Positions 14,084 through 29,495 of a stretch of 29,512 bases of DNA are shown here, in pieces. The stretch is from positions 1-29,512 of IMG/VR virus record IMGVR_UViG_3300042465_005741; one strand, 5' to 3'. Numbering within the stretch: the first letter of the stretch is position 1; the number at the start of each line of letters is the position of its first letter. Origin of the DNA: a virus. The notes under the pieces were generated by a model, which saw only the letters and a program-made list of their open reading frames with translations, was not told where the DNA came from and did not search any database. A program made the position numbers and the translations under genes.

Positions 14084-14289
14084 TAAAGAAGCAGCAGGCG
14101 CCAGTCTCTAAGCGGCGCTGGATGATTATTCGCACAGAGGACGGCAAGCCGACGCTTGGCTGCCCATCTGACGGCATCTCGCTGGAAGATCGCGCTAGGC
14201 GCATCTCAGAGAGTTACGTAATTGAGACGGAAGTAGTGGCGCATCACGAGTATTACAACCTAGACGACCCCGATCAGGAGGAGGAGTAG
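14080..14289 (+). CDS. hypothetical protein (69 aa)
   Basis: GTG at 14080 overlaps the polymerase stop (GTGA) and has AAGGAG at 14069-14074. The 69-residue product starts basic (MIKKQQAPVSKRRW) and ends very acidic (YYNLDDPDQEEE). No recognised family; its stop overlaps the next GTG (TAGTG). Confidence 0.75.
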   Translation: MIKKQQAPVSKRRWMIIRTEDGKPTLGCPSDGISLEDRARRISESYVIETEVVAHHEYYNLDDPDQEEE

Positions 14290-14579
14290 TGCCGTACATC
14301 GATCCAGACAGAGCCAAAACCTTGCGGCCGCCCGGCTACGAGTTGGACACGGTTGAGGAATACCTAAAGCCCGGCGATGTGGCTTGGGCAATTTCTGAAG
14401 ATGTGGCCGCGTACCTGCGTCAGAACGGCATCTGTTTTGAAACCCTGAACGCGATGATCGGCGTGCTGGAGAACATCAAGGCCGAGTTGCGGTTGCGCAT
14501 TGTGGACGACTACGAAGGTGAGAAGTTGGCCGCAGGCGGTGCTGACCCGTTCGACGGGCTGATGAACAAACTTCCATGA
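14289..14579 (+). CDS. conserved-type small phage protein (96 aa)
   Basis: GTG at 14289 follows AGGAGGAG (about 14277-14284). The sequence begins MPYIDPDR and later has LNAMIGVLENIKAELRLRIV and DDYEGEKL. This resembles a widespread small phage family (about 90 aa) that starts MPYI and carries a GVLE-x-x-K-x-E helix before a YE-x-x-K motif. I do not know its function. It ends the replication operon; a regulatory gap follows. Confidence 0.75.
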   Translation: MPYIDPDRAKTLRPPGYELDTVEEYLKPGDVAWAISEDVAAYLRQNGICFETLNAMIGVLENIKAELRLRIVDDYEGEKLAAGGADPFDGLMNKLP

Positions 14580-14595
14580 TTTACGGGCGGCTCAA

Positions 14596-14604
14596 TGCTA
14601 TGAT
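14596..14604 (+). promoter_or_regulatory. candidate extended -10 promoter
   Basis: TGCTATGAT at 14596-14604 fits an extended -10 element (TG-n-TATGAT). No good -35 lies 16-18 nt upstream. If active it would start a transcript near 14611 that meets the strong hairpin at 14657-14687, giving an RNA of roughly 80 nt. Confidence 0.35.
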
Positions 14605-14617
14605 GATTGGGCTGTAC

Positions 14618-14637
14618 GAAGGAAATTCATTCCCTTC
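14618..14637 (+). other. small hairpin
   Basis: GAAGGAA (14618-14624) pairs with TTCCCTTC (14630-14637) with one bulged C, followed by a pyrimidine-rich stretch. It may be a weak terminator or part of a structured RNA with the next hairpin. Confidence 0.4.
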
Positions 14638-14656
14638 CTTTCTGTTGTTGTCACTG

Positions 14657-14690
14657 GTGCCCGGCGAGACTGTCCCTCGCCGGGCACTTT
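14657..14690 (+). terminator. strong GC-rich intrinsic-type terminator
   Basis: A perfect 12-bp stem, GTGCCCGGCGAG (14657-14668) with CTCGCCGGGCAC (14676-14687), encloses a 7-nt loop ACTGTCC and is followed by TTTCGCT. The T-tract is short, but the stem is the strongest simple hairpin with a T tail that I found in the window. It would separate the replication operon from the resolvase-terminase operon. Confidence 0.7.
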
Positions 14691-14693
14691 CGC

Positions 14694-14699
14694 TATAAT
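14694..14699 (+). promoter_or_regulatory. TATAAT -10 box just before the resolvase ATG
   Basis: A perfect TATAAT at 14694-14699 ends 8 nt before the ATG at 14708. Initiation 6-8 nt downstream of the box would give a leaderless or nearly leaderless mRNA. No ribosome site is visible before this ATG, which fits. There is no consensus -35 because that position falls within the terminator hairpin. Confidence 0.5.
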
Positions 14700-14707
14700 C
14701 ACTTCTA

Positions 14708-15175
14708 ATGAAGATCGTCGCAATAGACCCCGGTGAGTCACTTGGCTACGCCATCGGAACCCCGGAGTGGGAGATGGCAGGGACTTCTGAGTTGTGGGAC
14801 TTCATTCATGCGCTTGGCCGCGCTCTCGGCGTCACTGAGGCTGAGGTTGCCGACCAAGAATTGCTCGACCGGCTTCAGGGCGTCGAGTTTGTAGTGATCG
14901 AGGATTGGCAGTTGTATCCGTGGGAGTTGGAAAACCTCGGATGGGACAAGTGCCGCACCGCTCGCGGTATCGGCGCTTTGGAGTACATCTGCCAGTCTGC
15001 GAGCATCCCTTACACGCTTCAACCCGCCGCAATCAAAGACACGGCCGTATCGGCTGGCGCTGAGGAAAACTTCCTTCGCCCCTTGCACGAAAACCGCCAC
15101 GCTAACGACGCGACGATGCACCTAACCTACTACTTGTTGCAACAGCGCGTTGGCCGAGCCAAAAGTAGTAACTGA
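14708..15175 (+). CDS. RuvC-like Holliday-junction resolvase
   Basis: The 155-residue protein has a RuvC-type RNase H fold signature: D7 in IVAIDPGESLGYA, E65 in FVVIEDWQ, and H131/D134 in NRHANDATMH, which supply the catalytic acids. Phage RuvC-like enzymes of this size resolve branched DNA before packaging. It is the first gene of the operon that ends with the terminase, consistent with that role. ATG at 14708 lacks a Shine-Dalgarno sequence but is close behind a TATAAT box. Confidence 0.85.
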   Translation: MKIVAIDPGESLGYAIGTPEWEMAGTSELWDFIHALGRALGVTEAEVADQELLDRLQGVEFVVIEDWQLYPWELENLGWDKCRTARGIGALEYICQSASIPYTLQPAAIKDTAVSAGAEENFLRPLHENRHANDATMHLTYYLLQQRVGRAKSSN

Positions 15176-15449
15176 GGACGTAGCGGCCGTGCTGCGGCGC
15201 GTTGTGCGCCCGGACGATCCCGACGACGGGGAGGCTGTGCAGCGGCTTGCCGAGCGTGCCCAGACCTCGACGCGCACCGTCTATCGAGCGCTCTCTCCGC
15301 CTGACAGCGCGCCTGAGAACCCGCACACGATCTCGCTAGACCTCGCAGATCGCCTTGTATTGGCTTCTGGCAACCATCTGGCACAGGTAAACCCGCGAAT
15401 GGTGCTGCGGCCGAGCGGCGAAGTGGTAAGATATAGGGACGCACTATGA
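15150..15449 (+). CDS. small helix-turn-helix protein
   Basis: The protein (up to 99 residues) carries a HTH-like segment about 30-47, VQRLAERAQTSTRTVYRAL, then PHTISLDLADRLVLASGNHL, as in small phage regulators. The start is uncertain. TTG at 15150 gives the longest form and overlaps the resolvase by 26 nt without a clear ribosome site. GTG at 15189 has GAGG 11 nt upstream and gives 86 residues. The stop overlaps the small terminase ATG by 4 nt. Confidence 0.65.
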   Translation: MAEPKVVTEDVAAVLRRVVRPDDPDDGEAVQRLAERAQTSTRTVYRALSPPDSAPENPHTISLDLADRLVLASGNHLAQVNPRMVLRPSGEVVRYRDAL

Positions 15450-15871
15450 AAGTAGCCAAGATAGACGCATACCCGGAGTTGAAGGATCAACTCGCAGAAC
15501 TTACCGCAGACGGCGTTAGCCAAACCGAGATTGCTAAGGCTCTAGGAGTCAAGGATCGCGGCACGGTCGCGGACTGGCAGAAGCGGCCTGAAATACAGGC
15601 CCGCGTATCCGAGATCATTCGGAACCGCTGCAACACGATTACGCGCCACACAACCCGCCGCATCGAGGGCTTGCTGAACTCTGGCAAGGAGATCAGCCTT
15701 GAGAATGTCTTGAAGATTCACCGTGAGTTCGCTGGTTCAACGCTCAACATCAACCACTCTGACGCCGATGCAGGTAAGGCTATGGAAGAACTGATGATGG
15801 CAGTCCACGATGACCCCGCTCTGGCAGCGGCCGTGGACAAGTTGAAGACTGCGGATAATGACGAAGACTGA
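15446..15871 (+). CDS. terS: terminase small subunit
   Basis: The 141-residue protein has an N-terminal HTH (about 24-50, GVSQTEIAKALGV then RGTVADWQKRPEI), a helical middle (RNRCNTITRHTTRRIEGLLN) and an acidic C-terminus. This is the usual layout of small terminases: DNA-binding domain, oligomerisation core, and a tail contacting the large subunit. It lies directly before the large terminase and overlaps it by 14 nt. ATG at 15446 follows AGGGA at about 15433. Confidence 0.8.
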   Translation: MKVAKIDAYPELKDQLAELTADGVSQTEIAKALGVKDRGTVADWQKRPEIQARVSEIIRNRCNTITRHTTRRIEGLLNSGKEISLENVLKIHREFAGSTLNINHSDADAGKAMEELMMAVHDDPALAAAVDKLKTADNDED

Positions 15872-17303
15872 CCTCGACTCTTGGAAGGCGCTTCTTGAAG
15901 TACAGCCCGGAGCGGCTGACCATGTACTGACGCAGTTGCGCAAGGCTGTCTTCGTTCCGCACGAAGGCGGGCAGCGCGATGTGATGGACTCGGACAAGCG
16001 CTTCCGCGTGCTTCGAGCCGGACGACGCTGGGGCAAGACTGAGTTGGCCGCGCACGAAGTCATCGTGGCCGCGCTGTCAAAGCCAAACCAAATGGTCTGG
16101 TGGGTAGCAAACTCTGACAAGAACGTTCGACGCGGCTACCGCAAGGTCAAATCGCAGTTGCCCCGGATGCTGCTAGCCAAAGACCCGCCATCCGACGCCG
16201 CCAACGACCGCATCCTGTCGTTTAACAACGGCTCTCAGATCGAGTTCTACACAGCCGGTACGCCGGACTCGCTGGCCGGTGAAGGTGTGGACTTTGTTGT
16301 AATGGACGAGGCCGCGCTTATTCCTGAGAATGTCTGGTTCCAACTTGTGCGCCCGACGCTTTCGGACAAGGGCGGGCGAGCGCTGATCATCTCAACCCCG
16401 CGAGGCCGCAACTGGTTCTATCAGGTGTGGCAGCGAGGACAGGACGGCCACAAGGCTTACGAGTCGTGGCACTTCCCGTCTTCCCACAATCCTCTGATCG
16501 ATCTCGACGAAGTGGATGACGCAAAGGCGTCGTTGCCGGACTTGCTGTTTCAGCAGGAGTACTTGGCAAACTTTGTCGATAACGCTGCTTCGATCTTCAC
16601 CCTACAGGGAGAGCGCCCCGACGGAACCGAGTGGTCTGCCGTTCGAGCAGGGCTAGTGCCGCCGCGAGGCTGGGTCACGCTGGGCATCGACTTGGCAAAG
16701 AAAGAGGACTTCACGGTGATCTCCGGCTGCAACTCTGAGACCCGCGAGCCGTGCATCCTTGAGCGCTATAACGAAGTCTCGTGGCCGATTCAAGAAGAGT
16801 ACATTGTGGACATTGTGCGAGGCTTGCAGGAAGACCCGGAGGTAGAGGGTCTTACAGTCGTCGTGGACTCGACAGGTATCGGTGATGTCGTCTTCGATCA
16901 CTTAGAAGATCGCGGACTCGACGTGATCCCTGTCAACTTTGCGTCAGGACACCAGAAAGAGCGCATGGTTCGCTTGCTGGCTGCTGATCTGGAGCACGGC
17001 CGGGCATTCATTACCGAGGAAGAGCGTAAAGAGTTCCAGCACTACGAGTACGAAATCACAAAGAACGGCCGCTACACCTTCTCAGCGCCGCCCGGTCAAC
17101 ACGACGATATGGTGGCTGCCAAGATGCTCCAGAACTGGGGCGTCGTTCACGAGGCTCCGCCCGGTGTGCAGGTGATGAACCCCGCCGACCCGGACCCCGA
17201 CGATCTGGTGTGGGATGAACCCGAAGAGCCGGAGGGGCAGATCACGACTATAAAGCCGGACTCTACCCGCTCCATCGCTCTTCGAGAAGATGCGTGGTTC
17301 TAA
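15858..17303 (+). CDS. terL: terminase large subunit
   Basis: The 481-residue protein has the packaging ATPase motifs Walker A RAGRRWGKT (53-61) and Walker B VVMDEAAL (147-154), with LIISTPRG as coupling motif (about 177-184). The C-terminal RNase H-like nuclease shows GIDLAKKED (276-284), VVDSTGIGD (335-343) and HDDM (415-418) as metal-binding acids. Length is normal. Its TAA (17301-17303) overlaps the stop of the convergent holin-like gene by 4 nt. No portal gene follows on this strand, which is unusual. Confidence 0.95.
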   Translation: MTKTDLDSWKALLEVQPGAADHVLTQLRKAVFVPHEGGQRDVMDSDKRFRVLRAGRRWGKTELAAHEVIVAALSKPNQMVWWVANSDKNVRRGYRKVKSQLPRMLLAKDPPSDAANDRILSFNNGSQIEFYTAGTPDSLAGEGVDFVVMDEAALIPENVWFQLVRPTLSDKGGRALIISTPRGRNWFYQVWQRGQDGHKAYESWHFPSSHNPLIDLDEVDDAKASLPDLLFQQEYLANFVDNAASIFTLQGERPDGTEWSAVRAGLVPPRGWVTLGIDLAKKEDFTVISGCNSETREPCILERYNEVSWPIQEEYIVDIVRGLQEDPEVEGLTVVVDSTGIGDVVFDHLEDRGLDVIPVNFASGHQKERMVRLLAADLEHGRAFITEEERKEFQHYEYEITKNGRYTFSAPPGQHDDMVAAKMLQNWGVVHEAPPGVQVMNPADPDPDDLVWDEPEEPEGQITTIKPDSTRSIALREDAWF

Positions 17304-19000: not shown

Positions 19001-19602
19001 GTAGTTGATGTAGATAGCATCATAGCGTACAGGGTTCCGTTAGATAGGGTCACTCCTGTCCCCGCGCCGCCTGTCTTCGTGACTTGGAACGTTAGAGACG
19101 CCGTTGGTCCCCACGGCCCGGAAGTCACGTACGGCATAATTATTGGAGTTGAAACTCCAGTTTGTGAGCCTAAGTTAGAATCGTAAGTAAACGCCGCCGC
19201 CGCTGCCGGAACTGGGGAAAGAGTCCTTCCCGTACCGGCAGATGCGAAAGAGTATGTCCATGTGTGCGTGTCGGCCCCTGTTAAGACGACGTTGCCGCTC
19301 GCAGCACCTCCTTGTGCATACGCAGTGATTCTAAACCAGATCATAAGGTCTGCAAATTGTGTTTTAAGTGGGTCTGTTGAACGACCAGACGGAATAGGAA
19401 TGTCGATGACCCACGTGTGAGACGTAGTATTAGAGACAACACTCGGCTGATCCCAGCGAAAACTGGGAATTTGTATCAGTTGTTTTCCCTGCTCTAACTG
19501 TTTTACGCGCTCTTCTAGCCGCGCCATGCGAGTCTGCTGCCGCGTATCTGAGTTAGAGACTGAGAACTGCTGTCTTGGAAGTTGTGCTGGATTGTCCGTC
19601 AT
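18997..19602 (-). CDS. minor tail protein with coiled coil
   Basis: The 201-residue protein begins with a polar stretch and a short coiled coil (RMARLEERVKQLEQGKQ, about 26-42). A beta-rich, Ser/Thr/Gly/Ala-rich remainder typical of tail-tip or receptor-binding proteins follows. GGAGG 5-6 nt before ATG 19602 supports the start. It is the last tail gene before the lysis cassette. A host-recognition role is inferred from position and composition only. Confidence 0.7.
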   Translation of the reverse strand: MTDNPAQLPRQQFSVSNSDTRQQTRMARLEERVKQLEQGKQLIQIPSFRWDQPSVVSNTTSHTWVIDIPIPSGRSTDPLKTQFADLMIWFRITAYAQGGAASGNVVLTGADTHTWTYSFASAGTGRTLSPVPAAAAAFTYDSNLGSQTGVSTPIIMPYVTSGPWGPTASLTFQVTKTGGAGTGVTLSNGTLYAMMLSTSTT

Positions 19603-28491: not shown

Positions 28492-28935
28492 CTAGCCGGG
28501 GAAAGAAGCCAGATTATTGCCGTGGCCCTCGATTTGAGCCTCAAGACGGGACTTGTTTCCAGTCGGATCGTCCGGGTAGTCAATCCGAGTAAGCCGCAGG
28601 AACCACATCTCGCCGGTGTTTCCGCTCGATTGCGTCTGAAAGGCGCTGCGCAGACGGTCGCCGTAGTCCTCGATCACGCCGGGATCAACTTGAATGGTCT
28701 CGTCCGGCTCGGCATCGTAAGCCATATAAATCTGAAGCACGACAGGCACGACCAACTCGATTACGCGCCCCGGACGCTCGTATTCGGCCTCTGGATAGAC
28801 CGCCGCGACCGTCTCGCCTTCTTTTCCGGCAGCACGGGTCAATTTGTCGTTCGTCACGATTAGACCTTCGGCTGAGAACTCGTCCTCAACGATGTCGATT
28901 ACGCGCTGCCGAACTGCTGTTGCTGCTGATGCCAT
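28492..28935 (-). CDS. tail terminator-like protein
   Basis: The 147-residue protein starts with a helix (TAVRQRVIDIVEDEFSAEGL) and continues as a mixed alpha/beta domain (RVIELVVPVVLQIYMAYDAE, WFLRLTRIDYPDD). Size, helical start and place after the gp10-like gene and before the tube protein match siphovirus tail terminators (lambda gpU-like). The start is coupled to the previous stop (TAATG). Confidence 0.65.
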   Translation of the reverse strand: MASAATAVRQRVIDIVEDEFSAEGLIVTNDKLTRAAGKEGETVAAVYPEAEYERPGRVIELVVPVVLQIYMAYDAEPDETIQVDPGVIEDYGDRLRSAFQTQSSGNTGEMWFLRLTRIDYPDDPTGNKSRLEAQIEGHGNNLASFPG

Positions 28936-29495
28936 TAGGAGAACATTATAGCGAGAATTTCTCCCGCTTCGTCCGCGATTTCATCGAGCGTGTCTGACAT
29001 ATAATTCTGAGCCGCGTATCCAGGATGCACAAACGGCTCGTGTGCTTCGCCTGGTTCGAAGTCGTATGGGCCGGTAAAGCGGTAGAAACTCTTGCCGCCG
29101 CTAGTAGGGAGGTTGAAGTTCATCGGACCTCGACCTTCTTCTTGCCAGCGAGCGTGCGCGGCAGTTGCTGAGATTGTGATCGTGTCGCCATTGACTCTCC
29201 CTGTGATCGAGTTGCGCAGCGCGCCAGTGCGCACCGGCGCTTTGGACCGCGCCTTCTGCACCGCTAGTTCGGCAATGGCTTGCAGTCCTGCTCGCAGGCG
29301 TCCTTCCAACTCAATGCCTGCCTCGGCCAACGCAGCAGGATCGTCTTCGGCTTTCAGGAAGATTTCGGCCTGAGCTGCCGAGGCAAACCGACCGCCTACA
29401 GACTTGCCATTTATGACCGTTCCGGCGGGGAACTGGAACGGGCGGCGACTAGGGCCACGAGCTGAGCGGCGCGATCCGCCCTTAATGAGAGCCAT
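28935..29495 (-). CDS. HK97 gp10-like tail-completion protein
   Basis: The 186-residue protein contains AELAVQKARSKAPVRTGALRNSI, whose A-P-V-x-T-G-x-L-R-x-S-I signature is typical of HK97 gp10-like proteins at the head-tail or tail junction. HARWQEEGRGPMNF and a C-terminal FVHPGY follow. The N-terminus (about 1-40) is basic and unusual. ATG at 29495 overlaps the stop of an upstream gene (TAATG). Its position implies head-tail adaptors lie beyond the right edge. Confidence 0.85.
   Translation of the reverse strand: MALIKGGSRRSARGPSRRPFQFPAGTVINGKSVGGRFASAAQAEIFLKAEDDPAALAEAGIELEGRLRAGLQAIAELAVQKARSKAPVRTGALRNSITGRVNGDTITISATAAHARWQEEGRGPMNFNLPTSGGKSFYRFTGPYDFEPGEAHEPFVHPGYAAQNYMSDTLDEIADEAGEILAIMFS

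Follow-up and report, generated by a model that had tools for sequence, protein, structure and literature searches.

What does a 128-nt gap (14580-14707) between the replication and packaging genes of a phage do? The stretch of DNA analysed here, referred to as the window, is a contig of 29,512 nt from an uncultured phage. Its + strand carries helicase, primase and polymerase genes, followed by a DUF6899 gene, the gap, a resolvase gene, a gene for a small protein and the genes for both terminase subunits; endolysin and tail functions are encoded on the - strand. A first-pass annotation had read the gap as a possible small RNA or attenuator followed by a leaderless promoter, and the individual elements of that reading, which are collected in Table 1, are considered below together with the same region in related contigs.

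Table 1. Features in and around the gap, with window coordinates and the basis on which each is listed.
Feature	Coordinates	Strand	Basis
DUF6899 protein, last gene 5' of the gap	14289..14579	+	PF21840, E 5.3e-9
P1 block TTTACG...TGCTATGATG, promoter-like, with extended -10 at 14596-14604	14580..14605	+	Conservation in relatives
Small hairpin in the P1 leader	14618..14641	+	Fold; absent from L003-L005
Perfect 12-bp stem with 7-nt loop, intrinsic-terminator-like	14657..14687	+	Fold, stem scan, terminator score
Short U-containing tail TTTCGCTATAAT, overlapping the P2 -10	14688..14699	+	T-tail score 2.68
P2 -10 hexamer TATAAT, predicted start about 14706-14708	14694..14699	+	TATTAT 7 nt before the ATG in L003-L005
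Predicted Holliday junction resolvase of RuvC type, heading the packaging operon, without Shine-Dalgarno sequence	14708..15175	+	phrog_1770, E 3.3e-4
Small protein without assigned function, second in the packaging operon	15150..15449	+	Kept in syntenic relatives
Terminase small subunit	15446..15871	+	phrog_2538, E 2.9e-4
Terminase large subunit	15858..17303	+	phrog_2, E 9e-47

Gene identities and related contigs

Judged by its predicted structure, the first gene product after the gap is a RuvC-like resolvase. The AlphaFold2 model has a pLDDT of 90, and the top Foldseek matches are bacterial RuvC structures (best E 3.1e-6). At the sequence level the assignment to phrog_1770 is weak; no Pfam match is obtained for any of the seven members of the family, and there is no match of note among PDB sequences. 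When 3 kb was searched against an annotated phage collection, only a short terminase stretch was found in common, in Thermus phages (seven records), and a profile search of genome contigs with the resolvase alignment, conducted for host identification, returned no relative.

A search for related loci identified four contigs with the same neighbourhood, which represent two lineages: L003, L004 and L005, identical to one another in the gap, and L006. Aligned coding sequences are 82% identical to the window in L005 and 89% identical in L006. The gap is kept in all four contigs. In the comparison with L006, 120 of 127 ungapped gap positions are identical versus 531 of 826 four-fold sites (64%), a difference (binomial 7e-16, or 7e-9 with a local rate of 75%) that local recombination could inflate in part, because four-fold identity varies along the region, from 68% and 75% in the flanking genes to 86-95% in two genes further on. 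The gap is also structured, as had been claimed: a 131-nt region folds with a z of -4.96, and none of 200 shuffles folds as well.

The GC-rich hairpin

The perfect 12-bp GC-rich stem described in the first-pass annotation is present, with arms at 14657-14668 and 14676-14687 enclosing the loop ACTGTCC, and the resulting hairpin combines high stability (-25.8 kcal/mol) with the GC-rich stem and short loop sought in a terminator. The window has no other perfect stem of at least 9 bp (loop 3-12); 20 shuffles gave on average 1.8 such stems, and a single stem of at least 12 bp in total. By a d'Aubenton-Carafa-type score, in our own implementation, the hairpin reaches 12.2, and no other position in the window, on either strand, is positive. 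Because 2 of 20 shuffled whole windows reach this score somewhere, the score alone is not decisive, and position and conservation count instead. Three relatives were scored in the same way (G001, G003 and G004, with G002 left out), and the hairpin of the gap ranks first in G001 and G003 and is the third distinct site in G004.

All 33 hairpin positions are identical in L006. In L003-L005 the same place is occupied by a hairpin of other sequence, with a perfect 15-bp stem, and this replacement of the stem sequence between lineages, with a hairpin kept, supports the reading of the hairpin as a terminator. The tail is poor in U, with TTT followed by CG, and fails a rule of five T in eight positions, and its T-tail score is matched or exceeded by 0.8% of window positions. 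A simple promoter and terminator scan lists neither kind of site in the gap, which is explained by the lack of a fitting -35 and the scarcity of T in the tail. Intrinsic terminators between phage operons resemble this element in the perfect GC-rich stem, the 7-nt loop, the short T-containing tail and the location at an operon border, whereas the gap tail is unlike theirs in having only three U before CG and in sharing its bases with the predicted next promoter.

The weak U tail also fits a different reading, in which the hairpin would be an mRNA-processing or stability element within a single long transcript and the TATAAT behind it would be incidental. Such an element would be consistent with the hairpins, differing in sequence, that precede the resolvase in several lineages and in L064 lie as close as 7 nt to its start. 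However, a resolvase without a Shine-Dalgarno sequence would be poorly translated from a long transcript, and both close lineages retain a -10-like hexamer 7-8 nt before the start, which makes this reading rather unlikely.

The resolvase start

The TATAAT that had been claimed 8 nt before the resolvase ATG is separated from this codon, at 14708, by the spacer CACTTCTA. The claim that the start is without a Shine-Dalgarno sequence is likewise borne out: its best duplex with the anti-Shine-Dalgarno string has an energy of +2.0 kcal/mol, the weakest of 23 + strand starts listed, 13 of which have energies of -6.4 or lower. TATAAT alone is not rare in the window (4 occurrences vs 1.84 expected); a full six-position match 5-9 nt upstream is found for 2 of 1432 ATG/GTG triplets, the resolvase start included. 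No -35 is recognisable at the expected distance from this candidate promoter (P2).

Transcripts generally start some 6-8 nt downstream of a -10, and the hexamer is placed for initiation at the start codon; the absence of a Shine-Dalgarno sequence is a second feature expected of a leaderless promoter. The hexamer lies 7-8 nt before the ATG in the window, in L006 and in L005, to which L003 and L004 are identical in sequence. It is preceded by TG at the extended -10 position in L003-L005, but not in the window. Leaderless -10 promoters are alike in these respects, and the start in the gap is predicted by the same layout. The leaderless resolvase mRNA is thus the better-supported half of the first-pass annotation, carried by the hexamer and by the lack of a Shine-Dalgarno sequence in both close lineages. 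According to one published study (PMC4633059), leaderless -10 promoters are common in mycobacteria, and most of the examples in E. coli come from mobile DNA, including lambda and P2; another (PMC5312081) remarks that phage transcripts often lack a leader. A literature search on leaderless phage late promoters returned general treatments only.

Beyond the close group, a scan with the terminase alignment yielded 13 loci and one with the resolvase alignment 22, and the region upstream of the resolvase was tabulated for 19 entries, including the window, L006 and L003. Strong hairpins precede the resolvase in L063 (z -7.65) and L064 (z -6.97), where the hairpin overlaps the upstream stop codon; a weak one is found in L062 and none in L053 or L007. 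The remaining entries have no perfect stem of at least 8 bp and no TATNAT within 200 nt upstream. In most of the tabulated relatives outside the close group the resolvase is packed against its neighbour without a gap, and it also lies tight behind its neighbour, with no gap, in L012-L014, which have a distant terminase.

Anti-Shine-Dalgarno energies (kcal/mol) at the resolvase start are +2.0 in L006, as in the window, and -1.1 in L005. The distant syntenic relatives are also without a Shine-Dalgarno sequence (L062 -2.1, L063 +0.4, L064 -2.4, L053 -2.0), and the values are -3.2 for L007 and -10.6 for L065. The best -10 match 5-9 nt upstream covers six of six positions in the window and L006, five in L005, four in L062, L063 and L053, and three in L064. 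Since 7.4% of ATG/GTG triplets in the window reach a match of four and 0.9% reach five, the -10 is persuasive in the close group only; in the more distant relatives TATAAT was not found at the P2 spacing, and the candidates for a -10 are weak, matching 3-4 of 6 positions.

The upstream block and its leader

The extended -10 claimed at the upstream end of the gap, TGCTATGAT, is present at the position given in Table 1, and no -35 is recognisable at the expected distance of 17 nt. The block that contains it (P1) keeps 25 of 26 positions in L006, against the neutral four-fold identity given above, and 21 of 26 in L003-L005 versus 396 of 765 four-fold sites (about 52%), with a binomial value of 0.002 for boundaries set after the alignment had been viewed. 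The TG at the extended -10 position is present in the window and absent in L003-L005. The block is conserved above neutral expectation, and it could be a promoter yielding an RNA of 50-80 nt.

The leader between this block and the GC-rich hairpin is not conserved in L003-L005, where it is shortened to about 50 nt. A small hairpin had been claimed within it, which holds for the fold of the window and not for the L003-L005 lineage. A 33-codon frame, read by eye, overlaps the leader and the GC-rich hairpin in the window, and ends after five codons in L006 and after 13 in L003-L005. The ideas of a discrete RNA of about 80 nt and of an attenuator, which the first-pass annotation had offered for this part of the gap, are weak because the small hairpin and the 33-codon frame are not conserved, and neither gained specific support.

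In the former case, the product of P1 would be a small RNA of about 80 nt, stable and acting in trans, with a pyrimidine-rich single-stranded part and the terminator. The RNA predicted from P1 (14611-14690, 80 nt) does fold into two hairpins. The shortened leader of L003-L005 contains CACCTCCT (in L003 after the P1 block and ahead of the hairpin at 468), which matches the anti-Shine-Dalgarno end of 16S rRNA. There is also a sub-threshold match to the Rfam family ar14, but it scores 26.3 bits against a gathering score of 58.8 and is not listed in a whole-window scan at E 5; no Rfam family reaches its gathering threshold in the gap. Since the leader is largely missing or altered in L003-L005, its small hairpin included, such an RNA seems quite improbable. 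If the resolvase operon were controlled in cis by an attenuator or leader peptide, this might involve the 33-codon frame, which spans both leader and hairpin in the window. The early stops in both relatives led to its rejection as a candidate, no preserved alternative anti-terminator pairing was noticed, and control of this kind is very improbable.

In the lambda late leader, a promoter is followed by a terminator. If the gap were organised like lambda pR'-tR', P1 would be a late promoter, its 50-80 nt leader would stop at the hairpin and a phage antiterminator would permit read-through into the packaging genes. The order of promoter, short leader, terminator and packaging genes is as expected for such a switch, and the P1 block, including the sequence just 5' of the -10, is kept in both lineages although the intervening leader is not. 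In lambda, according to one account (PMC7171158), Q loads at a DNA element adjoining the promoter-proximal pause. However, the Q families PF06530 and PF03589 have no match in any of the four contigs searched, which may be incomplete, with the controls detected; the search with a third Q family, PF06323, had no control that was detected and is hence uninformative. P2, an additional candidate promoter behind the hairpin that has no equivalent in the lambda layout, would be redundant, and the position of the L064 hairpin over the upstream stop leaves P1 no intergenic room. Likewise, homologues of P23-45 gp39 or gp76 were not found by tblastn in the window, G001, G003 or G004 at E <=1, which is a sequence-level test. 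A lambda-like switch is accordingly considered unlikely here. It is also conceivable, but again decidedly improbable, that a switch of the lambda type operates without Q: P1 would be recognised via its conserved upstream block, the transcript would stall or terminate at a replaceable hairpin, and an unrecognised phage antiterminator, or a handover between P1 and P2, would time the packaging operon.

A study of the Thermus phage P23-45 (PMC7403470) describes middle and late extended -10 promoters that work with gp39, a protein with antitermination activity as well. The gap is like this system in having an extended -10 without a -35 (P1, and also P2 of L003-L005), and the terminases are distantly related (71.6% over 133 nt). 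It is unlike it in that P2 of the window has no TG and no gp39 or gp76 homologue was found, and the P23-45 gene annotated as a resolvase lies elsewhere in that genome, on the other strand.

Other sequence features

Several further features were observed outside the gap. Within about 25 nt 5' of the terminase small subunit start (15446, +) there is a TAAGATATA that is kept in G001, G003 and G004 and is a possible internal promoter. A genome-wide promoter motif GCTATRAT was considered (4 in the window vs 0.53 expected) and rejected: the site at 19019-19026 is inside coding sequence, and that at 28945-28952 is not retained where the orthologous gene begins in G001, G003 and G004. The latter, a second GCTATAAT on the - strand, lies 8 nt before the ATG of 28492-28935 in a layout like that of P2, and overlaps the end of the previous gene. 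A large imperfect palindrome at 2713-2754 (coordinates counted by hand) has the core GGGGGTCTATATAGACCCCC and flanks TTATGACACA and TGTGTCATAA, and is found 5' of an HTH gene at 2804.

In G004 (L038; IMGVR_UViG_3300032282_002631), nine copies of an intergenic element are found between small ORFs on the minus strand of 41410-43990. The element consists of a 33-nt hairpin with the loop TTCGATT and 13 bp that are perfect in 7 of 9 copies, then CCCCATTAGGGG (8 of 9 copies), then a purine-rich leader that ends in GAAAGGG, and then a start codon. Its exact 27-nt core is found in one viral contig only. The hairpin resembles a tRNA T-arm/acceptor minihelix, which could point to processing by RNase P/Z; ARAGORN detects no tRNA in it. 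In layout the element is like the start-associated sequences of Cluster K mycobacteriophages, which have inverted repeats (PMC3203893), and it differs from them in its T-arm look.

Proposed organisation of the gap

On balance, the 128-nt gap is probably the border of two co-directional operons, at which a terminator closes the replication genes and a leaderless promoter opens the resolvase and terminase genes. The GC-rich hairpin would halt transcription coming from the replication genes (DNA polymerase and DUF6899), and would also halt P1 transcription, should P1 fire. Right behind it, P2 would act as a -10-only promoter, initiating at the ATG or within 1-2 nt of it, and the predicted leaderless mRNA would carry the RuvC-like resolvase and terminase genes.

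Such an arrangement is essentially ordinary, a tidy gene border, and because leaderless genes are well documented elsewhere it would add one more example to a known type. That several lineages have unrelated hairpins at this border suggests that selection acts on the border and not on a particular RNA. The gap likely separates transcription of the replication genes from that of the packaging genes in a lineage of uncultured phages that has no close relative in the annotated collection searched, and it may lend itself, as a compact system, to the study of leaderless late expression.
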